The notes under the pieces are model-generated. The model was given only the letters and a program-made list of their open reading frames with translations. It had not been told where the DNA came from and ran no database searches. From the IMG/VR virus record IMGVR_UViG_3300011114_000936, positions 1-30,688 of that record: a stretch of DNA of 30,688 nucleotides; one strand, given 5' to 3'. Below, in pieces: positions 1,392 through 30,688 of the stretch; position 1 is the first letter of the stretch; each line of letters opens with the position of its first letter. Origin of the DNA: a virus. The position numbers were made by a program, and so were the translations under genes.

Positions 1392-4300
1392 ATGGACGCC
1401 AAGACTTTGGAGCGCATGGCCGCGAGGGCCGAAGCTGGTGGTGACGCTGACGGCGCTGCGAGGCTGCGCCGCATGGCCGCTGCCTATGGGGCGTCTGTAC
1501 CTACTACTACTCCTACTACACCCCCTACTGCTCCTGTTCCGACGCCGATTCCTGAGCAGGTGGCCCCAACTCCGGCCCCTACCTACGAGATGACGCCACA
1601 GACCTACGAGACCTTGCTGGGCATCCCCAAGGCCGTGGGAGGCTCTGACCTTCTGAACCTCGCGGTCCAGGCCTACCAGCGGGAGATGGACAAAGGGCTG
1701 CAACAGCGCACGCAATCCATCGAAGAGACCCAGGCAAAAGCAGAGCAGGCCAAGCAGAAGATCTTGTCGACCGCGTCGACTGCGGCCGGCGAGAAGTATT
1801 CTCCGGCAGGGCTTCCTCCCGCGGCGGCGCTCGCTGGGCCGCTGGCCGCTCCGCTGACCTCGGGCTCCCGCATGATCCGTGGGATGCCTGGCTACGTGCT
1901 GGACGAGACCACGAACAAGCCGCGAGAGGCGACCAATCTGGAGCTTCTGACCGAGCCTTTCACGCGGCAGACCATCTACGAAGGGCCGGAAGCTGAAGCT
2001 CGAAAGGCCAAACTTCTGGCCGAGAAGGAGGCCAAGTACCAGGCTGCACGCGCGGCCGGGAAGACTGAGGACGAAGCTCGCCAGGAAGCTGAGCCCCTGA
2101 TCACCGGGACGCTGACTGCGGTTGAGCCCAACCGCATCGTTGAGACCCGCCTCATGGCGGCGATGCGCGACCTCGGCATGACCGAAGCCTTGCTCGGTGA
2201 GTTCGTCTTCGACACGCTGCCCCTGTTCTATGAGGTCGACGCCCAGGGCAACTTGCAGCATCCTGACGAGTACGGCGACCGCATCGCCAAGGCGGTCGAC
2301 GACTGGCTGAAGGCCAACGCGCCCAGCTACGCGAACCAGCCGTTCATCTTCGGGACCACCAAGACCGTCATCCCGCGCCCGTTTCAGTCCATCGACCGCG
2401 ATACGCCTACGACCTTGCCTGACGCTGGGGAGCGCACCGCGGTCTACACGCCTCGGGCCCTGGCTGACATCAGCACCTCGGTCGCCCGGGGCCGCAGCAT
2501 GGGCGACGAGTTCTTCAGCGTCCCGGCCTACCGCGACGCGCTCGGGGAGAACTACGGCACCGGCCTCACGGCCGCTTTGATCACCGGGTTTTTCATCCCC
2601 AACAGCCCGATTCCTGGCTTTGGCGCCATCGCTGACGCAGCCAAAGTCGGCGAAGATGTCGGCAAAGCGATCAAGTCGGCCAAGGTCGCCGAGGCGGCTG
2701 CTGCTGTCGGGAAGGCGGCAGAGACTGGGGCGGCCCTCACCAGCCCGACTCGCTGGGGCAAGGCTTACAAGCTGGCCACCGCGACGAATGAGCTGGCCGC
2801 AGCGACGGGAGGCAAGCCCGTCAGCGTGACCGAGGCGCTGCTCTCCCAGGGTGACGTGGCGAAGCGCGGCGCTGATCTGCTGGCGCAGGAGCTGGTGGCC
2901 CCCGCGTCGATCCGCGTGATGGCCAACGAAGGCGTCAAGGCGGAAGAGGTGCTTGGCTATGCCAGCAACTCAAAGTCCGGGCAGCACATCATGCGCATGG
3001 CCGGCATCGCCCCCGACGCGACCGGCGCGCTGAGCCCTGAGCAAGTCAAGGCCATCGAGACCGCGACCAAGGAGTGGCGCCTGGGCGCGGAGGCCAACAC
3101 CTTGGCCAGCGCGTTCACCGGGCCGAACGCCAAGGCGCTCACGCAACAGGTCCTCTCGGCTCCTGACGTCGAGATTCGCAAGGTTGTTGGCGACCTTGTC
3201 GGCAACAGCGACGACGCCATCCGTGGCACTCGCTACGAGCAGATCCTCGAAGATTTGCGGCGCGTGGCCCAGGCCGAGGGCGAGGTGAGTGTCGGGCAGT
3301 TTGATGAGGCCATGAAGCAGTGGCAGAAGCTCGCCAAGGAGAGCGGGTCCATGCCGATGCCCATCGGCAACAAGTACCTGCGCTCTGCCATCGCCTTTGT
3401 CGACCAGGTCGAGAACGTCGCGATTCGCTCCCATACTCCAGGGGCTGCTTCAAACAAAACCGGGTCCACCCTCGCTTTGATCGAGACCAGCTACCGCAGC
3501 CCGTTGACGCCCGCGTTCAAGGTCTCAAAGGCGGTCGCGCAGAACGTAGACGAGACTTCTCCACACACGCTCTTGAGTCTTGCGCTTCACCGGGCGGTCT
3601 CCGATGGGGCCGAGGACGTGATCCGCAACATGGTGCCGAAGGACATGGTCTTCGTCACCGATCGGCTCATGGTGCCGCGGTCGATGGTCACCGAACAGGC
3701 CGTCGAAGATGCTGGACAGTTGGTCGCCGCCGCGATTCCAAAGAGCGCCTACGCCGTCGAGAACGGGCTTCACACGGTTCCGTCAAAGAGCGTTGTCAAT
3801 GCCCTGGACACCGTGAATCGCGTGCAGGAGAGTTCATTCCTGCGGAAGCTCGCCGCGAAAGCTAATCGTAAAGAAGAGCTGGTCAGGCTTACCCCGGAGG
3901 AGTTCGCCTGGGTTGCTGACGCGCTGAGCGAAGGAGCCTGGCGCGCGACGCTTGGTGAGGAAACAGTAAGGACGCCAATCTTCAAGGGTCGACAAGTCGA
4001 GGCCGCGCTCGCGCCACAAGAGGCTGGAGCCCCTGTTCGGCGTTCGTTGGGACAAATATTTGACGACTACGTTCAGGTGGTTGAAGCCGTGGAGCTGTCC
4101 CTCCGCAAGACCCTCACCACCACCGTGGGCGGCTTCAAGCCCCAGGATGTGAAACGGGCGGAAGGCCTCGCCATCAGCGGCATCGTTTCTGACTGGCGCA
4201 AGAGCTTCAAGATCGACCTGACTCCGGCCGCTGTGCAGAAGACCATGGGTGACATCAACAACTTGATCGCCCCCATTCCTGAGCGGTTTCAGACCGAGCT

Positions 4301-7300
4301 TCTGGCAGACGCCAAGAAGGCGCGGGCCGCTGGCATGGCCAACCCTGGTGAGGTCGCGCTCAACGCCGCGCTGCTGCGGCGCTGGAACAGCATTGGCGAT
4401 GACGCCGTTGCCGCGTTGGATGAGCAGGTCCGAATTTTGGATAACCGCGAACTGGCGTCTCAGTTGCTGGGCGTAGAGTTGAAAAGTTTGCCGACTGAAG
4501 CCCAGGTCTACGCGATTGTCGCCTACCAAATGCGCGGGATCAGTGAGGTTGAGGGCACCGCGACTACGATGCAGCTCGGTCAGCGCATCGCCGCGATCGG
4601 AAAGATGAGCGTGGAGCAGCAGGCCAAGTTCATCTCCGTCACGAAGAAGGCCTTCCGCGACCAGGCCTACATGGTGGAGTGGCGTCGAATCCTCGAAAAC
4701 TACTTCATCGGCACGCTCTTCGGGAAGCCCATCGACCCGAACGCCAGCCAGTTGCAACAGGACATCAGCATCAGCCTCGGGAAGTTCGTGCGCGACGCCA
4801 AGGCGCAGGAGGCTTTGGAGAACCTGCGCGCGGCCCAGGCGGCCAATGCTCCATCGCCCACGCTCTACGCGCTGCACGACCTCGTGGTCAACGCTGGCGT
4901 CATGGCCCCGACCCCGGCCAACTTTGAGGTGGTCGTCAAGCGCATGAAGGACAGCTCCGAAGAGCTCGGAAAACGAGGCGCCGCGTCGTGGTCGTTGCTG
5001 TCCGTGGAGTGGAGGACCGCGAGCTTCGAGACCCTGTCGGCCTGGGCCATGGGTGTCGACAAGACGAAGATCGTCAACGATCAGCTGCGCATCATGTTCG
5101 ACATGAACCCGGCCGTGCGTCTGGACCTGCTGCCCTCGCAGTCGGCGCGCACGCAGGTCTTCAACGACAAGGTCACTCTGGCCAAGCTCACCGTGGCGCA
5201 GGACGTCGTTGACGCCATGGCCAAGTTCTACAAGCGAATCACGAAGAAGGAGCTGGCACCTGAACTTATCGCGGCTGCACGGGCTGAAGCTATGACGCCC
5301 TCCGGGGTCGAGGCTGTCCAGGCGGCCGAGCGTCTGACCCCGACCAAGCTCTACGCGGCTGAGCCCGCTGGGGTTCGAGCCCAAAGCCGCATCGCGCAGA
5401 AGCTCGCGCGTGAGACCGCAAAGGCGGAGAAGGCCACCTCCTACGCAGACTCACTGAAGGAAGCGGTCTCAAAGCTCGACGCCGAGATCTCGAAGCTCAA
5501 CGCGCGCAAGGACGCCATCATCAACTTCACCGGCGCTCCTGCTCGCAAGGCCCAGGCCGAGCAGCTGTGGCGGGATGTGGCCGCCGCGAAGACCGCCGCT
5601 GAAGATGCCGAGCGGATCGCGACCGCTGACCGAGAGGCGTTGTCGCAGGCAAAGGCCCAGCGCACGGCCTATCGGGAAGCCACGAAGGCCGCGAAGGCGG
5701 CGCCCGATAGCGGTGCGGTTGACGCGCTCCAGTCCCGGATCAAGAGCATCGAGGTGCAGCTCGCCGACGCGCAGGAAGCTGTCACCGAAATGGACGCTCT
5801 GCGTGCGAAGTTCAACAAGTCCAAGGGCAAGAGTCAGCGGTCAGCGCTCGCAGCGATGGATGCCTACGCGGTGGCCAAGGGCACTGACTTTGATTCGTAC
5901 TACAAAGCACAGAGCGATCTCGTGCAGCGTGGGCAGTCCATCCTTGACCAGCTCCGCGGTGAGCTGAAGGCGGCCCAGGCCGCACCTCCTCGCCCAGGGC
6001 CGGTTCCAAAGGGCGTGAGCAACGCCGACCTGAAGGTGCTCCTCGACAAGGCCAAGGCCTCTCGCACCCAGGCCAAGAAGCTCGCGGCCGAGCTGAAGCC
6101 GCTCGAAGCTCGCAAGGCCAAGTTCATCAGCCTCATCGCGGAGAAGGTGAACCCCATCGCGGCTCAGGTGAAGAAGCTCTCCGACGCGAAGTTCAAGGTC
6201 GCTGAGAAGCTGCGTGATGCCTCCTCGAAGGCGGCTTCGGCCCAAGCCAGCGTTGCGGCGCCCCTGGTCAGGACGGTCATCCCCTCGGTTGAGCGGCCGG
6301 TCATGGTGCCGATCATCGCGGACATCGACCGCTACGTGGACCTGCGCCTCCGCAGCCTGGGTGTTGAGGAGCGCGGGCAGATCATGGAGGACATCGTTGG
6401 CCGCATGGTGGCCGATGGGACTCTCTACCCGAACATGCGGTCGCTCCGCGCGAACACCTCCGTCAGGACGGCCGGCAATCGAGCGACCCTCGCCGCTGAA
6501 GCTCGCGGCGGCATCGGGCGGTTGCTGGAGTCGAAGGGGCCCAAGGCCGACACCGCGTTGCACAACCTGGTCTACACCGTGGCCCAGGAGATGAAGCGGC
6601 TTCAGGTCCCGCAGGACAAGCTGGTCGACGCTGTCGTCAACGCGGTGGACGCCCGCATGAGCGACGTGGTGTCGTCCGGCTTGATCGAGGACATCCGCGA
6701 CGTCATGCGCGGCTACGGATTCAGCACCATGCACAACGTCAGCGAAGGGACAAAAGTCGAGCTTCTCGGCAAGTTTATCGGCGTTGATCTGAACAGCCCA
6801 ACAGTCGTTGCTGTTGGGCGTGACATGGTGGAGAGCTTGAAGAAGCTCGAACTCCAGGCCGCCAACGGCGAGCTGGTCAGCAAGTTGGAGCGGTTGCAGA
6901 CGAAGAACATTTATGCGGCGGGCAACGCTGCCCAGCTGGCGATGTACCTCACCCTCGAAGGCCTGGCCTTCCTGAAGTCCACGGCGCAGAGTGGCTTGCT
7001 CGCGGCTGGCACCGCGATCCAGTTGTTGCCTTGGCCGCTCATCCCGAACGGCCGCTACCTGGGCGTCAACATCCTCACGAACCCGCTCATCATGCTCGCT
7101 ACGGTCGGGCCGAAACGCGCGGCGCAAGCTGCTGAGTTTGCAGTTGGTGAGCGCGCCTCCCGTCTTGTCGACGTGGTCACCCGTCGCCCGGCGACGGTGC
7201 CGATGTTTGTGGACGTCAAGGGCAAACCGTGGATGCAGGCCGACCTGGAAGATGCTTTCCTGCGCAACAACATCACGACCACCACGGCTGACATGAACCA

Positions 7301-8408
7301 GGCCGCGGACTTCTTCGAGTCGTTGAAACGTGACCTTCGCATCCTCTCCAGGTCCGAAGGCCTGAATGAGATGCACTGGTTCCGGGCTGCGGTAAATCAG
7401 CTTGATCCCACGGTGAGCAACATCTTCCAGCGCTTCGCGGTGGACTGCGACATGACCATGCGAAAGGCAACTTTCGCGACGGCCATTCGGGATGGCATGA
7501 CGGAGCAGCAGGCGGCCAAACTCGCGCGAGAAGCGACGTTGGACTACGGCAATATCCCCGACGCCGTGAAGACCTACGCCAATCGCTACATCCTCTTCGC
7601 TGCCTTCCAGATGGCCAGCACCAAGGCGATGCTCGAAGCCCTGGCCAACGACCCTACCACCTTCATCCGCGTCGCGCGGTTGCAGATGCGGCAGCAGCAG
7701 GCGGTCGGCAACTGGTACTACGGCGACGACTCCAACCGGGTCCGCATGTTCGTGGACGCGACCAAGACTGGGCCTGAGACCGACAACATGCCCGCCTTCA
7801 TCGCTGGCCCGCAGAACCCGATCCTGTCTTCCTACTGGCAGCTCATCAGCGTGCTCGGTTGGGGCAGCGAGCTGTTCGGGCCGCCTCGGGTCGACTGGGC
7901 CTCTCGCGGCGTCGAGGGCGTCATGGAGGCCCAGCTTCAGCCCGTGGCCCAGGCCGCGCTCGGGGTGATCTCCAGCCCGGGGGAGGGCGCCATCGGGCGG
8001 CTCGTCCCTGACGACTGGGTGTCCTTGCTGAAGACCTACCCGTGGGCCTGGGCGTCGATGAAGGCGTGGTGCGACATTGAGGAAGTGCCCATCGAGAAGC
8101 GCCGCCCCGGGACTCCGACCTTCGAGGGGACGCCTGGGGTCCAGTACCAGTTCACCTCGAAGTCCGGCTACCGCACTTGGCAGATGTGGATGCTGGCCGC
8201 GACCCAGGCCCGCATGGGCCGCACGTCTTCCGACTTTGAGAAGACGCTCATCGCGGGCGGCATGGGCGAGGAGGGCTACAACCCCAAGTACAGGGCGCTG
8301 GCCAACCCCTTCCTCTACGCTGTCGGCGCGCAGACGCCTGTTCGCGGGGTCACCCCCGAGGAGATCCAACGCAGGGCTTTGCAGACCGTTGAGCGTGAGG
8401 TACGCTGA
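1392..8408 (+). CDS. Giant internal virion / DNA-ejection protein, 2338 aa
   Basis: The ATG at 1392 follows GGAGG with good spacing. At 2338 aa this is about 23% of the genome and far longer than T7 gp16 (1318 aa), whose position it occupies as last of the three presumed ejectosome genes. Visible parts: an Ala/Arg/Asp-rich helical start (1-35), a Pro/Thr-rich linker (about 37-65), a long helical body, a Lys/Ala/Glu-rich coiled-coil block (about 1335-1620), hydrophobic, possibly membrane-inserting stretches (about 1840-1905), and a conserved-looking module near 2015-2080. That module has an Ala-Arg-Glu-Ala-Thr-Leu-Asp-Tyr-Gly core followed by an aromatic segment ending Phe-Gln, and recalls the LPD38-type C-terminal module of giant phage polyvalent proteins. 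I see no lysozyme/transglycosylase or RNA polymerase motif. The ejection role is inferred from context; the LPD38 resemblance is from memory. Confidence 0.75.
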   Translation: MDAKTLERMAARAEAGGDADGAARLRRMAAAYGASVPTTTPTTPPTAPVPTPIPEQVAPTPAPTYEMTPQTYETLLGIPKAVGGSDLLNLAVQAYQREMDKGLQQRTQSIEETQAKAEQAKQKILSTASTAAGEKYSPAGLPPAAALAGPLAAPLTSGSRMIRGMPGYVLDETTNKPREATNLELLTEPFTRQTIYEGPEAEARKAKLLAEKEAKYQAARAAGKTEDEARQEAEPLITGTLTAVEPNRIVETRLMAAMRDLGMTEALLGEFVFDTLPLFYEVDAQGNLQHPDEYGDRIAKAVDDWLKANAPSYANQPFIFGTTKTVIPRPFQSIDRDTPTTLPDAGERTAVYTPRALADISTSVARGRSMGDEFFSVPAYRDALGENYGTGLTAALITGFFIPNSPIPGFGAIADAAKVGEDVGKAIKSAKVAEAAAAVGKAAETGAALTSPTRWGKAYKLATATNELAAATGGKPVSVTEALLSQGDVAKRGADLLAQELVAPASIRVMANEGVKAEEVLGYASNSKSGQHIMRMAGIAPDATGALSPEQVKAIETATKEWRLGAEANTLASAFTGPNAKALTQQVLSAPDVEIRKVVGDLVGNSDDAIRGTRYEQILEDLRRVAQAEGEVSVGQFDEAMKQWQKLAKESGSMPMPIGNKYLRSAIAFVDQVENVAIRSHTPGAASNKTGSTLALIETSYRSPLTPAFKVSKAVAQNVDETSPHTLLSLALHRAVSDGAEDVIRNMVPKDMVFVTDRLMVPRSMVTEQAVEDAGQLVAAAIPKSAYAVENGLHTVPSKSVVNALDTVNRVQESSFLRKLAAKANRKEELVRLTPEEFAWVADALSEGAWRATLGEETVRTPIFKGRQVEAALAPQEAGAPVRRSLGQIFDDYVQVVEAVELSLRKTLTTTVGGFKPQDVKRAEGLAISGIVSDWRKSFKIDLTPAAVQKTMGDINNLIAPIPERFQTELLADAKKARAAGMANPGEVALNAALLRRWNSIGDDAVAALDEQVRILDNRELASQLLGVELKSLPTEAQVYAIVAYQMRGISEVEGTATTMQLGQRIAAIGKMSVEQQAKFISVTKKAFRDQAYMVEWRRILENYFIGTLFGKPIDPNASQLQQDISISLGKFVRDAKAQEALENLRAAQAANAPSPTLYALHDLVVNAGVMAPTPANFEVVVKRMKDSSEELGKRGAASWSLLSVEWRTASFETLSAWAMGVDKTKIVNDQLRIMFDMNPAVRLDLLPSQSARTQVFNDKVTLAKLTVAQDVVDAMAKFYKRITKKELAPELIAAARAEAMTPSGVEAVQAAERLTPTKLYAAEPAGVRAQSRIAQKLARETAKAEKATSYADSLKEAVSKLDAEISKLNARKDAIINFTGAPARKAQAEQLWRDVAAAKTAAEDAERIATADREALSQAKAQRTAYREATKAAKAAPDSGAVDALQSRIKSIEVQLADAQEAVTEMDALRAKFNKSKGKSQRSALAAMDAYAVAKGTDFDSYYKAQSDLVQRGQSILDQLRGELKAAQAAPPRPGPVPKGVSNADLKVLLDKAKASRTQAKKLAAELKPLEARKAKFISLIAEKVNPIAAQVKKLSDAKFKVAEKLRDASSKAASAQASVAAPLVRTVIPSVERPVMVPIIADIDRYVDLRLRSLGVEERGQIMEDIVGRMVADGTLYPNMRSLRANTSVRTAGNRATLAAEARGGIGRLLESKGPKADTALHNLVYTVAQEMKRLQVPQDKLVDAVVNAVDARMSDVVSSGLIEDIRDVMRGYGFSTMHNVSEGTKVELLGKFIGVDLNSPTVVAVGRDMVESLKKLELQAANGELVSKLERLQTKNIYAAGNAAQLAMYLTLEGLAFLKSTAQSGLLAAGTAIQLLPWPLIPNGRYLGVNILTNPLIMLATVGPKRAAQAAEFAVGERASRLVDVVTRRPATVPMFVDVKGKPWMQADLEDAFLRNNITTTTADMNQAADFFESLKRDLRILSRSEGLNEMHWFRAAVNQLDPTVSNIFQRFAVDCDMTMRKATFATAIRDGMTEQQAAKLAREATLDYGNIPDAVKTYANRYILFAAFQMASTKAMLEALANDPTTFIRVARLQMRQQQAVGNWYYGDDSNRVRMFVDATKTGPETDNMPAFIAGPQNPILSSYWQLISVLGWGSELFGPPRVDWASRGVEGVMEAQLQPVAQAALGVISSPGEGAIGRLVPDDWVSLLKTYPWAWASMKAWCDIEEVPIEKRRPGTPTFEGTPGVQYQFTSKSGYRTWQMWMLAATQARMGRTSSDFEKTLIAGGMGEEGYNPKYRALANPFLYAVGAQTPVRGVTPEEIQRRALQTVEREVR

Positions 8409-10232: not shown

Positions 10233-10538
10233 ATGAAGTACATCGACCCCAAGAACATCAGCCAGGGCGCCCTCGGCTCCTCTCCCGGCATCGGCGTCAT
10301 CGGCAGCGCCGTCGTCGCTGGGACCACGGCCGCCACCAACATCACCGTCACGGGCATCGGCCTCGCCGACAAGCTCGTCGCGGTGGTGCGCCTGGACCGT
10401 GACGCGACCGCCGCCAACATCAACATCACCAGCGTGCTCAGCGAGGCCAGCATCACGGCCGCGAACACCATCCAGCTGTCCACCACCAACACGACCGGCG
10501 ACTCGCTGCTCGTGCTCTGGCAGAACGGGACCACCTGA
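10233..10538 (+). CDS. Small beta-rich putative head decoration protein, 101 aa
   Basis: The ATG at 10233 has a strong site (CGGAGGTAG) overlapping the upstream gene's end. The pattern of Thr/Val/Ile-rich strands, an internal segment with Asp/Lys-Leu-Val-Ala-Val-Val-Arg, and a C-terminal Gly-Asp-Ser-Leu-Leu-Val-Leu-Trp resembles small beta proteins that are frequent in phage structural regions. Those are often listed as decoration or hypothetical virion proteins. Virion location is inferred from composition and the late operon. Confidence 0.6.
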   Translation: MKYIDPKNISQGALGSSPGIGVIGSAVVAGTTAATNITVTGIGLADKLVAVVRLDRDATAANINITSVLSEASITAANTIQLSTTNTTGDSLLVLWQNGTT

Positions 10539-10539
10539 G

Positions 10540-10794
10540 ATGGCGGCCAAACCATCCAAGGGCAAGGCCAAGGTCAAGGTCACCAGCTCTGGCAAGCGCG
10601 TGTCCTATGGGCAGGCCGGTCAAGCCAAGGGTGGTGGCCCTCGCGTCAAGCCTGGGACGGCCAAGGGAGATGCCTACTGCGCTCGGTCGGCGGGCCAGAT
10701 GAAGCAGCATCCCTCGGCCGCCTCCGATCCCAACTCGCCTCTGCGCTTGAGCCGTGCTCGGTGGAAGTGCAAGGGCGAAAAGTCCACGAAGTAG
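10540..10794 (+). CDS. Small Lys/Gly-rich basic protein, 84 aa
   Basis: The ATG at 10540 lies one base after the previous stop. The N-terminus is strongly basic (alternating Lys, Gly, Pro, Val). A conserved-looking core follows: Lys-Gly-Asp-Ala-Tyr-Cys-Ala-Arg-Ser near residues 45-53, then Ser-Arg-Ala-Arg-Trp-Lys-Cys near the end. I recall this Cys-Ala-Arg-Ser plus Trp-Lys-Cys pattern from a widespread family of small phage proteins of unknown function (possibly DUF6321), but could not check. The two Cys could bind a metal or form a disulfide. Nucleic-acid binding is plausible from charge only. Confidence 0.65.
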
Positions 10795-11600: not shown

Positions 11601-13898
11601 TCACCGAAAGCTGTTGGAGTTGACGTGGAAGTTACCAGCGATGATCTCAGGATCAACGGCGTGAAGACCGTTGCCGGGCATGGGCTCGACGCCCTGGTCC
11701 TCTCCTTCGAGGTACTTGTAGTAGTAGCTGACGCCGTTGATCTTCCCAGCTCCCCGGATGAAGCCGGCGTTGATGAGGGCGGCGCCAAGTGACAGGCCCT
11801 GACGCTGCACGTCGATGGGCTTGGTCTTGTCTTGCACGATCGCCATGGCGAACTGCTTGACCGTGATTCGGTTCTTCTTCCCTCCATAGTTGGCGTTGTA
11901 GATCTGCGTGGCGCACTCGGTGTAGTAGTCGGTGTAGGTGCTGGTCTCATTGTTCGAGTCCCGCATCTCCTCCTCTTCAGCGGTGAGCCACCACTGCTCT
12001 CCATTGAGAAAGTAGGTGACGGCTTCGGCGAGGAGCTGGTCCCTGTTCTCGCGCAGCCAGTCGAGGTCGGCCTTGGGCTGCTGCCAGCTGCGCGCGTTGA
12101 GGGTGTAGTCGCGCGGGCACTCAACGACCCAGTACCTGCGCGACCCAGTCGGGTCCTTCAGAAACATCCCCTCGTTGGTGGAGCTGACGAAGACGGAGTG
12201 GCGCGGCAGCGTGATGGTCCGGCGTCCATAGGGCGGGCGAAAGGTGTCTTCCTGCGTGGTGAGGAAGCGCTTCTTGGTCTCCTCATCCGCGCGCTTCCCG
12301 CTGGCCATCTCGGCGTCTTCGTAAATCCAGCACTTGCGCAAGGCCTCGTAGGCGTCCTTGTTGGTCATGTCGATGGGCGAGGAGTTCGTGTAGCACTTGT
12401 CCCCGATCTGCGTCCACACCCGGCAGATGGTGCTCTTGCCCATGCCCTGCACGCCCTTCAGGGTGAGGACGGTGTCGAGCTTGCACCCTGGCTTGGCGAC
12501 TCTGGCGATCAGCCCGATGGCCCAGCGACGGGAATAGGCAGCGATCAAAGGAGTCTGCTCGGCTCCGGTGGTGCGGTGCAACCAGGTGTCGAGGCGGGGC
12601 ACCTTGTCCCAGGCCAGCGTATTCAGATACTCAATCACAGGGTTGCGCTTGTTCATGTTGCAGACGCGCTGGATGGCGTCGTTCACGATGTCCTTGCCGC
12701 CCGGACGCAGCCAGTTGTAGTCGTCCTGCGCGATGCGGATGATGTCGAGATAGTCGTGGTCACTGACGGGCCGATCACCGTTCATCTCAACGCCATCGAA
12801 ATCGTCAAACCAAAAGTTAAACCTGGCGTCCTGGGTGATGAGCGTGATGAGATTGCTGATGGTCGGGAGGATCGCGCCGGGCATCCCATTCGCGCCGGGA
12901 GCCCGCGCGAGCTGGGCACGGCCAGGGGAGGGGGGAGTCGTGACGATGTTGCTGATGTTCCAGTAGGTCGTGTTGCGTGGCCCGCTGAAGTAACGGGTGC
13001 GGCCGTCCTCTTCCTTCTTAAAGAACCCAGAGCCAATGCTGGTTCCACCGAACGGGCAGATGACTTTTTCCTTTTCACCAGGATCAAGTCGATCCACGAT
13101 GGCCTGCCAGGTCTCTCCCTCACACTCCATGAGGTTGAAGTCGACGGTCTCGCTGGGGTTCTGCCCCTTTGGCTGCTTCCCGTTGGTCGGCGCCTTGGTC
13201 GCGGCCATGGCGTTGTGCTGATGGATGATGTTGGCGACCATCCCGCTGGTGAGCACCACGTCGGGATGCTCAGCGAGGAGCGAGACCACACGCGGTTGAG
13301 CGTCGCACTTGGTGTTGATGGACCCCGGAAGGCGGCAGATGCGGGCGCCGACATCCTGGGTCTTGTCCCAGCAAGCAGGCCAGGAGACGTGCTGTTGAAG
13401 CAGCTCCTGGGCGTACTGATGCAGCTCTTTGAGGGCCGCTTTCTCAGCGCCGAACTGCTGCGGCACAGCGATGTGGTAGTGACGGCCCCAGCCCGAGTCG
13501 ATGACAGCCGTGGGCTCACACCCAAAGACCTGGCGGAAGGCCTCCCCGCACTCGTTGTGCAGCTGCAAGGTCAGCTCGGCCAGAGTCTCCTGCGACTCGG
13601 CGTACATGAGCGCCTTCTTCGCCTTGGCATTGGGCGCCTTCTGCCCAGCGGGCGTGGGAGAGAGGTGCTTGGACTGCCAGAGCTGCACCAAGTCGGCGTC
13701 GAAGAAGAGGCTCGTGACACGGACGACGCTCTCCTCAGTGCGCCCGTTTTCATTGGCGTTGCGGTCGATAGAATCGAGCGCGAAAGTGCCGGTCGAAATG
13801 TAGGTCTGGCCCCCGAAGACGGGCATCGCGTAGCGACAATTATCTTCGGGGTCGGGCCACACGCTGCGCGGCCTGGTGTTATAAAGCTCTTGGGACAT
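11601..13898 (-). CDS. Primase-helicase: archaeo-eukaryotic-type primase fused to SF3/VirE-like ATPase, 765 aa
   Basis: N-terminal primase/polymerase motifs: Phe-Phe-Asp-Ala-Asp (acid pair D67, D69), Ser-Gly-Trp-Gly-Arg-His-Tyr-His (135-142), and Arg-Leu-Pro-Gly-Ser-Ile-Asn-Thr-Lys (189-197). This set is known from AEP/PrimPol enzymes such as the phage NrS-1 polymerase. C-terminal ATPase motifs: Walker A GVQGMGKST (482-490), Walker B Trp-Ile-Tyr-Glu-Asp-Ala-Glu (524-530), sensor Val-Ser-Ser-Thr-Asn-Glu (571-576) and an arginine-finger-type Gly-Ser-Arg-Arg-Tyr-Trp (585-590), as in VirE/D5-like SF3 helicases. It should unwind the origin and synthesise primers, and possibly longer DNA. The start is preceded by GAGG. 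It is the only recognisable replication enzyme here. Confidence 0.9.
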   Translation of the reverse strand: MSQELYNTRPRSVWPDPEDNCRYAMPVFGGQTYISTGTFALDSIDRNANENGRTEESVVRVTSLFFDADLVQLWQSKHLSPTPAGQKAPNAKAKKALMYAESQETLAELTLQLHNECGEAFRQVFGCEPTAVIDSGWGRHYHIAVPQQFGAEKAALKELHQYAQELLQQHVSWPACWDKTQDVGARICRLPGSINTKCDAQPRVVSLLAEHPDVVLTSGMVANIIHQHNAMAATKAPTNGKQPKGQNPSETVDFNLMECEGETWQAIVDRLDPGEKEKVICPFGGTSIGSGFFKKEEDGRTRYFSGPRNTTYWNISNIVTTPPSPGRAQLARAPGANGMPGAILPTISNLITLITQDARFNFWFDDFDGVEMNGDRPVSDHDYLDIIRIAQDDYNWLRPGGKDIVNDAIQRVCNMNKRNPVIEYLNTLAWDKVPRLDTWLHRTTGAEQTPLIAAYSRRWAIGLIARVAKPGCKLDTVLTLKGVQGMGKSTICRVWTQIGDKCYTNSSPIDMTNKDAYEALRKCWIYEDAEMASGKRADEETKKRFLTTQEDTFRPPYGRRTITLPRHSVFVSSTNEGMFLKDPTGSRRYWVVECPRDYTLNARSWQQPKADLDWLRENRDQLLAEAVTYFLNGEQWWLTAEEEEMRDSNNETSTYTDYYTECATQIYNANYGGKKNRITVKQFAMAIVQDKTKPIDVQRQGLSLGAALINAGFIRGAGKINGVSYYYKYLEGEDQGVEPMPGNGLHAVDPEIIAGNFHVNSNSFR

Positions 13899-14729: not shown

Positions 14730-15074
14730 ATATCGTGGTTGAAACTCCAATATTGCGTGGTCGACCTAACAGCAGAGGACCTCCAACCAAGTCAGGGGGG
14801 AGTCTCCTACGGAGATAGTCAAGGATAAACCTGGTCCAGTAGGGGGTAGAGTACATATAGGAGTAAAATCAAAGAGTAGATACCTACACAGCAAACAGCT
14901 CAGCGCAGCACAGCGCACCAACTTCTGCTGCGCGCATCCCTCTTCGACTACTTTAGTTTGACCCCCCTACCCCCCCACTGCCCTATACTTTGGAACAGGA
15001 CCCAGGAACAACCGCCATCTTCTTTGGTAGGGGGGGTCAGCGCGGCGCTCGGGCAGGTAGGGGGTGCTAAATCT

Positions 15075-15110: not shown

Positions 15111-15635
15111 ATGAAGTACCACATGATCATCGACACCGAGACTTCCGGCCTGCCCAACAACCAGCACGCTGCGCCCATTCAGGTGGGTGTCGCGGTCCTC
15201 GGGCCGGATCTCAACCTCGCCTACACCGACAGCTGGTACGTGATGCCGCGCATCATCGACACGGCGTCCTACCGCGGAGCGCAGAAGGTCCACGGCATCT
15301 CGCTCGCCACCCTGGAGCAGTACGCCTTCAGCTCGGAGGCTTCAGTTGAGAAGCTGAAGTCCAAGTGGCTGGAGTTCGGGCGGCCTCAGCTCTACGCCTA
15401 CAACGTCAGCTTTGACGAGCTGATGATCCAGCGGATGGGATGGGCACCCGGTGGCTACTGGGGCCCTTGCCTGATGAACGCGGCCACCTCGTACTTGCAG
15501 CGCCCGAAGAAGGTGAAGCTCGTGGAGGCCTGCAACGCCCTCGGCGTGCCCGGTCCTGGGGGCGACGCGCACGATGCCCTGGCCGACGCGGTCGCTGCTG
15601 CCAACGTGGGCCGTGCTATCGGAGCCTTCGTATGA
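15111..15635 (+). CDS. DEDDh 3'-5' exonuclease (DnaQ-like), 174 aa
   Basis: Exo I motif Ile-Asp-Thr-Glu-Thr at residues 7-11 (D8, E10), a His-Gly-Ile-Ser segment at 61-64, Exo II Tyr-Asn-Val-Ser-Phe-Asp at 97-102 (D102), and Exo III His-Asp-Ala-Leu-Ala-Asp at 154-159 (H154, D159). All four acidic residues and the His of the DEDDh class are present. The size matches stand-alone DnaQ-like nucleases. It may proofread or trim ends for the primase-helicase, which has no exonuclease domain of its own, or process host nucleic acid. First gene of the rightward operon, it overlaps the next by ATGA. The start has no evident Shine-Dalgarno sequence. Confidence 0.9.
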   Translation: MKYHMIIDTETSGLPNNQHAAPIQVGVAVLGPDLNLAYTDSWYVMPRIIDTASYRGAQKVHGISLATLEQYAFSSEASVEKLKSKWLEFGRPQLYAYNVSFDELMIQRMGWAPGGYWGPCLMNAATSYLQRPKKVKLVEACNALGVPGPGGDAHDALADAVAAANVGRAIGAFV

Positions 15636-15838
15636 AGTGCCCTGCCTGCGGCTCCGATGAGATCGGGGTCATCGCCACGCGGGCGCCCGACAAGGGGCCT
15701 GCGCTGGCTCGCGCAATTGGTGAGCGCCACCCTACGATGTTGACGCGCAAGCGTAGGTGCATCACCTGTCAGCATGTCTGGTGGACCGGTGAGATCAACT
15801 TGACCAGCATGGAGGCCGCATGCCGCACAACGAGCTGA
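15632..15838 (+). CDS. NrdR-like zinc-ribbon protein, 68 aa
   Basis: The ATG at 15632 overlaps the exonuclease stop (ATGA), with GGAG at 15621-15624. Two Cys pairs, C3-x2-C6 and C43-x2-C46, frame a segment with Val-Ile-Ala-Thr-Arg and an Arg/Lys-rich run before the second pair, ending Trp-Trp-Thr-Gly-Glu. This order copies the zinc ribbon of the ribonucleotide-reductase regulator NrdR, but the ATP-cone domain is absent. A DNA- or RNA-binding regulator is likely, perhaps of this operon. It may instead be a small zinc-ribbon packaging or structural accessory. Its last 19 bases overlap the next gene. Confidence 0.7.
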   Translation: MKCPACGSDEIGVIATRAPDKGPALARAIGERHPTMLTRKRRCITCQHVWWTGEINLTSMEAACRTTS

Positions 15839-29190: not shown

Positions 29191-30688
29191 ATGGCTCAGC
29201 CCGCTTCTCCCATCACTGCTTTCGACCCGATCAACCCGGTTGACCAGCCCCTCCTCGCCGCCCCCGCCGACCCGCTCGGCAAGATCATCTTCTGGCGCTA
29301 CTTCCCCTACGACCAGACCAGGGTGAACTGGGAGCGGGCCAAGGAGCAGGCGGCGGCCAACCCCTACGCCGTTCAGCTGGAGCTTCTGCGGCAGGAGGTC
29401 AGCGCTCGTCGCGCCTCTCTCGACGCCTACCTGAAGGCGATTCAGGCCGAGCAGACGCCGCTGGAGCGCAAGCTCGCGGAGGCCGAAGCCGCGAAGAGCA
29501 AGCGCGGTGGCGGTGGAGGAGGTGGGGGAGGCCTGTCGGAGAAGGACAAGCTCGAAGGTTGGGACAAGGTCTCGCGTGGCGAGGAGACTCAGACCCGTGC
29601 GACGCAGGAACTTCGTGCAGCTGAGCGGCAAAAGGCTGAGAAGATCGGGCGTCCTGATCCGGCTGTGCTCGCGCCGAACACGCAGATGGCACAGGTAGTC
29701 AAGCAGGGCAAAGCTGCCAATTTGACCCCCGAACAGATCAATCAGCAGCTGAACGCCTTTCAAGCAGATCCTACTGGACCCGTCGCCAAGGCTGCACAAA
29801 GTAGCGATCCGCTGGTTCGCGCGTCCAACGCCGTGAACCTTGAACAGCAGCTGACTGCTGTTGGAATCGCGCCCGCCGAGGCAAAGACTCGGGCGGCTGA
29901 GGTTTACAAGGTGTCTCCTGACCTTGTCGATGCGAAAGGTCTGGAGCTTGCGCGTGGACAGATGCTGGCTGGTGCCGAAGGCATCACGGTCGAGCCGTCC
30001 ACCGGTCGCGCTGAGATGCGGGCCATCCTTCAGAAGCCGAGCGGTCGCGGTGGTGCCCGCGCCCTGACGCCCCAGGAAGAGGCTGATCTGAGGGCCAAGT
30101 CTCTGGACCCGATGGAACAGCTGGCTGTGCAGCGCTACATCGAGGCCCTGGGCGATGACTACCAGGCCACGGCCGCTGACATTGGCGCTGGAAAGCCGTT
30201 CAAGGACCAGGCCGCGATGGACGCTGGCAGGGCCGCCTATGAGAAGGCGGCCAACCTGGGCGCCTATACCCGGGCGCAGGCCCCCTACTTCAGCCCCGAG
30301 TTCCTGAAGCAGGGCCGTGAGTTGATGGCGTTGGAGAAGGCCAAGTCCACCGTTGGAGAGGCCTATGGCCAGCGAGCGGGCCGCAGTCCGCTCGAAGTGC
30401 AGCAAGAGCAGGCCCGCCTCTTCCTCGAACAGCAGCGCATCCTGCGTGGTGAACCCGCGGCCATTCCCCGTCCCAGCGATGAGGTCGGCGGGAAGTGGTG
30501 GGATGAGACCAAGGCGAAGCGTCCCTGGCTGCTCGATAGCATGGCTCGTGCCAACCAGATTCTGCGTGAGGAGGGCGACGGCGTCCTCGAAGGTGGAATG
30601 AGCGAAGCCCGCCGCCGCCGCCTGACCGGCGAGGCCAAGGCTCAGCGTCAGCTTGATCGCGCGCAGCGGCTGACCGAACAGTCTGTGC
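29191..30688 (+). CDS. Internal virion (ejectosome) protein, N-terminal part; continues at the window start
   Basis: The ATG at 29191 lies six bases after the previous stop, with GTGAGGA upstream. The frame is open to the window end and continues at base 3 after circular closure, giving about 712 aa. The N-terminus is Pro/Ala-rich, then a helical region (about 55-103) and a run of nine Gly (106-114), a flexible hinge, before a charged Gln/Glu/Ala body. From residue ~262 onward it matches the copy at the window start, with three residue differences. Its place between gp14-like and gp16-like genes suggests a gp15-like ejection-channel protein. Confidence 0.75.
   Translation, partial: MAQPASPITAFDPINPVDQPLLAAPADPLGKIIFWRYFPYDQTRVNWERAKEQAAANPYAVQLELLRQEVSARRASLDAYLKAIQAEQTPLERKLAEAEAAKSKRGGGGGGGGGLSEKDKLEGWDKVSRGEETQTRATQELRAAERQKAEKIGRPDPAVLAPNTQMAQVVKQGKAANLTPEQINQQLNAFQADPTGPVAKAAQSSDPLVRASNAVNLEQQLTAVGIAPAEAKTRAAEVYKVSPDLVDAKGLELARGQMLAGAEGITVEPSTGRAEMRAILQKPSGRGGARALTPQEEADLRAKSLDPMEQLAVQRYIEALGDDYQATAADIGAGKPFKDQAAMDAGRAAYEKAANLGAYTRAQAPYFSPEFLKQGRELMALEKAKSTVGEAYGQRAGRSPLEVQQEQARLFLEQQRILRGEPAAIPRPSDEVGGKWWDETKAKRPWLLDSMARANQILREEGDGVLEGGMSEARRRRLTGEAKAQRQLDRAQRLTEQSV
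29975..30688. repeat. Terminal overlap, right copy (circular closure)
   Basis: Partner of bases 1-714: same length, no indels, 25 substitutions confined to the central ~530 bases. Most are third-codon changes. This copy carries Ala where the left copy has Glu, Ser and Pro. It marks the join of a circular assembly made from at least two co-existing variants. Confidence 0.9.

Follow-up and report, generated by a model that had tools for sequence, protein, structure and literature searches.

The gene at 11601-13898 of the window (the whole stretch of viral DNA analysed here, 30,688 nucleotides) almost certainly encodes an AEP primase-polymerase (PrimPol) domain joined in one protein to a VapE/SF3 ring helicase. 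The AEP fold of its N-terminal half, the intact and invariant catalytic residues and the helicase family were established computationally. Both AEP-VapE fusions and PrimPol phages that lack a polymerase have been described before (S-2L, NrS-1, CRP-901); what is new is an AEP sequence family that is unrecognised by Pfam, PHROG and NCBIfam profiles, the phage lineage that carries it, and an association between SSB and PrimPol. The results define an uncultivated phage lineage of ~30-34 kb in whose core an AEP-VapE fusion is the one gene with a recognised replication function.

Domain architecture and active site

An earlier note on this DNA had described the product as a primase-helicase with AEP motifs and an SF3/VirE ATPase. 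The ORF had been placed correctly, and the architecture was borne out by the model of the N-terminal domain, which matches AEPs, and by the match of the C-terminal half to PF05272 (Table 1). The PF05272 search, which had been proposed as a check, assigned residues 425-653 as a VapE-like domain with 234.8 bits against a curated Pfam cut-off of 25, which confirms the SF3/VirE ATPase. PHROG DNA helicase families also matched the helicase half, down to E=4.8e-75. The middle module, modelled with pLDDT below 50 over most of its length, occupies the place of the PriCT/helix-bundle region.

Table 1. Positions of the PrimPol-helicase gene, its domains and motifs, and two neighbouring features in the window
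Feature	Position	Strand	Details
PrimPol-helicase, AEP primase-polymerase domain + VapE/SF3 helicase	11601..13898	minus	765 aa, ATG start
AEP (primase-polymerase) domain, aa 1-235	13194..13898	minus	AlphaFold2 pLDDT 92.2; 6zp9 Z 13.7
Motif I, D67-A-D69, metal binding	13692..13700	minus	invariant in 32 orthologs; aligns with S-2L E85/D87
Motif II, S135-G-W-G-R-H140-Y-H142, nucleotide binding	13473..13496	minus	H140, H142, W137, G138 invariant, S135 at least 90%
Motif III D178 (third catalytic acid) and motif IV R189..N195..K197	13308..13367	minus	invariant; spacings as in S-2L, PolpTN2
Middle module, aa 236-323, ..KVICPFGG..GSGFF..E.DGR.RYYS.P..TYWN..	12930..13193	minus	conserved in ortholog alignment
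SF3/VapE-type helicase domain, aa 324-734	11697..12929	minus	PF05272 E=1e-69; 7pds Z 31.6
Walker A, G482-S489 (GVQGMGKS, 482-489)	12432-12455	minus	within SF3/VapE helicase domain
Candidate origin/control region, (G)TAGGGGG x4 in both orientations	14839..15065		1/200 shuffles reaches it
DEDDh (RNase_T, phrog_192) exonuclease ORF	15111..15635	plus	PF00929 4.9e-6, phrog_192 2e-18

The profile check of the N-terminal half returned nothing trustworthy. Searches with this half (~235 residues) gave no trustworthy match in Pfam, PHROGs, NCBIfam or PDB; the inputs were 28 orthologs for Pfam, 32 for NCBIfam and the window protein for PHROGs, with 28-32 sequences over the Pfam, NCBIfam and PDB searches. 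By tblastn of the AEP half against isolate phages the window protein had no match and its ortholog L002 gave only fragments at E of at least 0.2, and a search of genome contigs found no relatives of the AEP half. Failure of the N-terminal domain to model as an AEP had been named as a refutation of the assignment. Modelled alone with AlphaFold2, the domain gave a confident AEP fold (pLDDT 92, pTM 0.89). Its nearest fold match was the AEP domain of S-2L PrimPol (6zp9; rmsd 2.5 Å over 156 residues), and the best 50 fold matches were all AEPs (archaeal PriS, human primase, RepB', the LigD Pol domain, CRISPR Prim-Pol).

In an alignment of 32 orthologs, the window's own among them, D67, D69, G136, W137, G138, H140, H142, D178, D182, R186, R189, P191, G192, N195 and K197 were invariant, and S135 was nearly so. 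The AEP signature motifs, defined as hhhDhD/E (I), sxH (II) and hD/E (III) (PMC5862659), are present as LFFD67-A-D69, G138-R139-H140 and W177-D178. Motif IV of PrimPol-PV1, an Rh pair with an Asn six residues on, is found as R189-L and N195, both invariant. The motif residues named in the earlier note (D67/D69, S135..H142, R189..K197) were right, although D178, the third catalytic acid and metal ligand, had been overlooked. Manual comparison of the two sequences, by motif and spacing, aligned S-2L Y63, E85, D87, T112, K115, H118, D146, R157 and H163 with Y33, D67, D69, S135, W137, H140, D178, R189 and N195, respectively. The D178-R189 spacing of 11 equals that of S-2L D146-R157, and the R189-N195 spacing of 6 equals that of PolpTN2 R231-N237 (motif IV; PMC5862659). 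D67/D69/D178, H140, R189 and N195 are in register with tested or structurally assigned residues of S-2L or PolpTN2, and the steric-gate Tyr of S-2L (Y63, dNTP selection) corresponds to the invariant Y33.

The phage lineage and its replication genes

A scan with the full protein found four full-length relatives of ~40% identity, and a scan with the N-terminal alignment found 50 loci; more than 30 full-length orthologs of 744-773 aa occur in viral contigs. Fourteen relatives are 30-34 kb long. Ten of these have matching end repeats of 90-149 bp, which indicates that their genomes are probably complete. Bases 1-714 of the window recur at 29975-30688, with 25 mismatches and without indels, as would fit a genome of ~29,974 bp that is circular or terminally redundant and was assembled across strains. 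Two strains appear to be joined in the record, the true length being about 29,974. With this overlap and the end repeats of the relatives, the earlier description of the circle as complete is reasonable.

Eleven genes are present in all 14 relatives: ORF 1392, PrimPol, TerL, portal, 20301, MCP, adaptor 22799, 24094, 26207, 26806 and 27819. PrimPol is the sole one with a recognised replication function; profiles identify several others as virion genes, and the remainder are without assignment. Matches to capsid and terminase proteins of isolate phages were below 30% identity among the matches listed, with no close relative. In the loci L022 (992-2338) and L021 (1127-2353), an ORF with a DPPYG methyltransferase-like motif lies between TerL and portal; it was not seen in the window. 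A small basic ORF at 10537-10794 of the window has a C-terminus weakly similar to phrog_10346 (0.0024) and resembling, by eye, the DUF5872 protein of a relative (L075:7746-8339).

Profiles of family A, B and C polymerases, run with positive controls, had no match in any of the 15 genomes (the window and the 14 relatives). Together with the lack of a ligase among the Pfam matches of the window and of an SSB in the window, this agrees with what the earlier note had reported. Its phrase "sole visible replication enzyme" holds in that no other core gene has a recognised replication function, but the situation is not unusual, since polymerase-less PrimPol phages have been published (PMC7102993, PMC8065100, PMC10149686). 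The relatives also carry an Erf-type annealase (12/14), an ExoVIII/RecE-like nuclease (12/14), a RuvC-like resolvase (11/14) and SSB (13/14); the clusters were counted by mechanical ORF picking and BLAST, with representatives alone profiled. No homolog of the annealase, nuclease, resolvase or SSB was found in the window in the comparison with these relatives. Each of the 13 SSBs inspected terminates in a tip of bacterial type, D-x-PF or a close variant. In bacterial SSB, proteins of host replication and repair dock at this tip. Since the window has no recognisable SSB, it probably borrows that of the host.

The earlier note had suggested the DEDDh exonuclease at 15111 as a separate proofreader. 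PF00929 RNase_T was found in none of 36 relatives with the same PrimPol, many in a set of 22 among them being short fragments in which absence says little, and tblastn of the exonuclease against phages gave no match. This lack of co-occurrence argues against the exonuclease as the proofreader of PrimPol; we rejected it as a partner, and it is probably not a conserved one. Immediately after it lies an ORF of NrdR-type zinc-ribbon similarity (15632-15835; PF22811, 2.2e-8).

SSB was present in 29 of 37 records. The eight without it are the window, G016 (L057), G020 (L021), G021 (L022), and G019, G025, G026 and G028, the last four being fragments of 7.5-11 kb. In a PrimPol tree of 32 sequences, the longest end branches were those of L057 (2.15), L021 (1.87) and the window (1.51), the median being 0.096; L022 is outside the tree, and its PrimPol ORF equals that of L021 in length and in the first 110 residues. 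The SSB-less lineages (the window, L057, L021/L022) are thus those with the longest PrimPol branches, an association noticed after the fact. The TerL branches are ordinary (window 0.36, G016 0.25), as if the replication module had been replaced or were fast-evolving. L021 and L022 are informative because their loci reach from TerL past PrimPol, which is surrounded only by small ORFs, as far as the homologs of ORFs 9918 and 8877 of the window, and neither SSB nor RNase_T gave a match in this stretch. In the tree the window groups with L021, possibly by long-branch attraction, so that SSB loss and PrimPol divergence may represent one to three independent events. G016 carries Erf and resolvase; since it has no end repeats, its SSB could sit in missing sequence.

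Candidate origins and elongation of the genome

The candidate origin region of the window, whose TAGGGGG motif was picked after the fact, has the PrimPol gene cluster on one side and the exonuclease and TerL genes on the other. Whole genomes, each compared with one shuffle, were scanned for 9-mers occurring at least 3 times in 300 bases; ACCCTGCAC stood out in G001, G010, G014 and G017. Arrays of CCCTGCAC with at least 4 copies within 400 bases were found in G001, G005, G007, G010, G014 and G017, as well as in L003, L004, L005, L015, L020, L027, L052, L055 and L061, and in none of the other records tested; in the window CCCTGCAC is not clustered. Wherever gene maps were made, these arrays sit between the TerL and PrimPol genes. 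They have 4-8 copies, and the four-copy arrays of several genomes show a near-fixed +/-/+/- spacing. Clustered 7-mers were evaluated in nine hand-picked stretches with 200 shuffles each, uncorrected for the number of stretches or words: none of the shuffles reached the clusters of L022 (ACCCCTC, 7 copies), G006 (CGCTCGC, 8), G015 (CGCACCA, 5) and G001 (CCCTGCA, 7), one of 200 reached that of the window (TAGGGGG, 4 copies in 14840-15064), those of G016 (GACAGGA, 5/200), G013 (CACGGCC, 12/200) and G012 (AGGTCTC, 17/200) were weaker, and G008 was at chance level (82/200). Several genomes, not all, therefore share the position of the array and differ in its sequence. The repeat region between TerL and PrimPol might serve as an origin, as an operator or as a packaging site. 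Its assignment as iterons of an origin is circumstantial, as the terminase genes nearby would also suit a packaging site or operators, and GC skew gave no clear origin.

Whether PrimPol copies the genome by itself or leaves this to a host polymerase, as the earlier note put it, is the right question. We think it somewhat probable that the protein is an initiator and primosome and that bulk elongation is performed by host Pol III. The C-terminal VapE-type SF3 domain would form a ring helicase; the protein would recognise the phage origin (candidate in Table 1), melt and unwind it, and prime both strands, the AEP domain making short primers, probably of deoxynucleotides. Host DNA polymerase III would then do the bulk elongation, with host SSB in the window phage. 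We infer the hexameric state of the ring, the origin binding, the dNTP preference and the elongating enzyme. Elongation by the host polymerase is favoured, with the same modest confidence, on general grounds: the small genome, the SSB tips of the relatives and the habit of such modules. The lack of family A, B and C polymerases in the 15 genomes, these SSB tips and the lack of SSB in the window point in this direction, and viruses below 40 kb tend to lack their own polymerase gene (PMC9860041). A role as origin-binding initiator is suggested by SaPI Rep helicases, which bind iterons at the origin (PMC7581432), together with the TerL-PrimPol repeat arrays. The pairing of AEP with VapE also suits a primase-helicase that binds an origin. 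Against host elongation, the sequence carries no sign of Pol III recruitment, the window itself lies outside the SSB-tip argument, and AEP enzymes of such kind can polymerise (NrS-1, S-2L).

The last point leads to the reading in which PrimPol would copy the whole ~30-kb genome, priming de novo and extending over kilobases in the wake of the helicase fused to it, whether or not the exonuclease at 15111 proofreads. Such self-copying was proposed for NrS-1 and S-2L. The complete AEP active site with its invariant steric-gate Tyr, the helicase fused in cis, the standing of PrimPol as the only recognised replication gene of the core with no other polymerase family present, and the NrS-1 precedent all agree with it, as does the TerL-to-9918/8877 stretch of L021/L022, where PrimPol is accompanied by small ORFs and by no SSB or RNase_T match. 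However, NrS-1 achieves processivity with an SSB of its own and another helicase, while the window has no SSB, and the absence of the exonuclease from every relative leaves no conserved proofreader. In small mobile elements such as phage P4, moreover, the primase-helicase usually leaves elongation to the host polymerase. We therefore regard self-copying as rather unlikely. For the window and L021/L022 in particular, the AEP-VapE polypeptide might be the whole phage-encoded replisome, SSB loss having accompanied rapid PrimPol divergence; it would initiate, unwind, prime and copy ~30 kb without a phage polymerase, SSB or conserved proofreader. This proposal as a whole appears doubtful to us.

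A divergent polymerase might instead be hidden in an unassigned protein, which the earlier note had named as a refutation, for example in the 2338-aa giant (1392-8408) or another matchless core ORF. The giant is core in 14/14 relatives and has no Pfam, PHROG or convincing PDB match. On the other hand, it varies from 1438 to 2338 aa with few invariant residues, unlike a replicative polymerase, its gene comes after the tail/virion gene block, and its 12-sequence profile found no polymerase in PDB, which makes a hidden polymerase highly improbable. The giant is perhaps a large virion or ejection protein. At least as improbable is a protein with an inactive AEP half that serves only as an origin-melting helicase, host DnaG being the primase. 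S-2L K115, a triphosphate contact, does appear to be replaced by the invariant W137, but orthologs down to 34% identity to the window protein all keep the three catalytic acids, the His of motif II and the Arg/Asn of motif IV, indicating purifying selection on the active site. With more than 30 natural variants, PrimPol replication of a phage genome becomes a testable question, and the SSB-less lineages with the most diverged PrimPols offer a natural experiment on the needs of the enzyme.

Comparison with known systems

The earlier note had likened the protein to NrS-1 polymerase. NrS-1 stands as a precedent: its polymerase likewise combines an N-terminal AEP domain with a ring SF3 helicase, its CTR (6k9c) matches the helicase half, though only at the fold level (Z 14.4), and replication of the phage is believed to be carried out by its PrimPol. 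The closest solved relatives, however, are S-2L PrimPol for the AEP half and PriRep1 for the helicase half. NrS-1 polymerase makes long DNA without a primer (PMC7102993, PMC8718748). No sequence similarity to it was found, its N300 was absent among the fold matches listed, which we do not read as exclusion, and its helix-bundle domain has no confident counterpart in the window protein; unlike the window, NrS-1 encodes a separate helicase and SSB.

S-2L PrimPol (6ZP9; All3500-like family of PrimPol-PV1) also joins an AEP domain to a C-terminal VirE/VapE helicase in one chain. Besides the AEP fold, it shares the order and spacing of the catalytic residues (D..D, H, D-11-R), and hhalign aligned it with the helicase half alone (probability 99.7). 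No other polymerase was detected in phage S-2L either (PMC8065100). The AEP halves are only 14% identical with no link at the sequence level, a nucleotide-contacting Lys in S-2L stands against Trp in the window protein, and S-2L PrimPol has a recognised PriCT-2 domain, from which the middle module differs. S-2L PrimPol extends primers, whereas primase activity was not shown in standard assays (PMC8065100).

PriRep1 (7PDS), deposited as similar to D. nodosus vapE, is the best solved match of the helicase half in the full-length model, its VapE helicase domain aligning over 383 residues with 25% identity; the 477-aa solved chain finds its counterpart only in residues 324 and beyond of the window protein, leaving the AEP half unaligned. 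The CRP-901-type roseophages are 52-53-kb phages with a separate helicase gene, and their PrimPol matches PF09250, whereas that of the window does not. Like the present lineage, they are polymerase-less and rely on a bifunctional primase-polymerase (PMC10149686).
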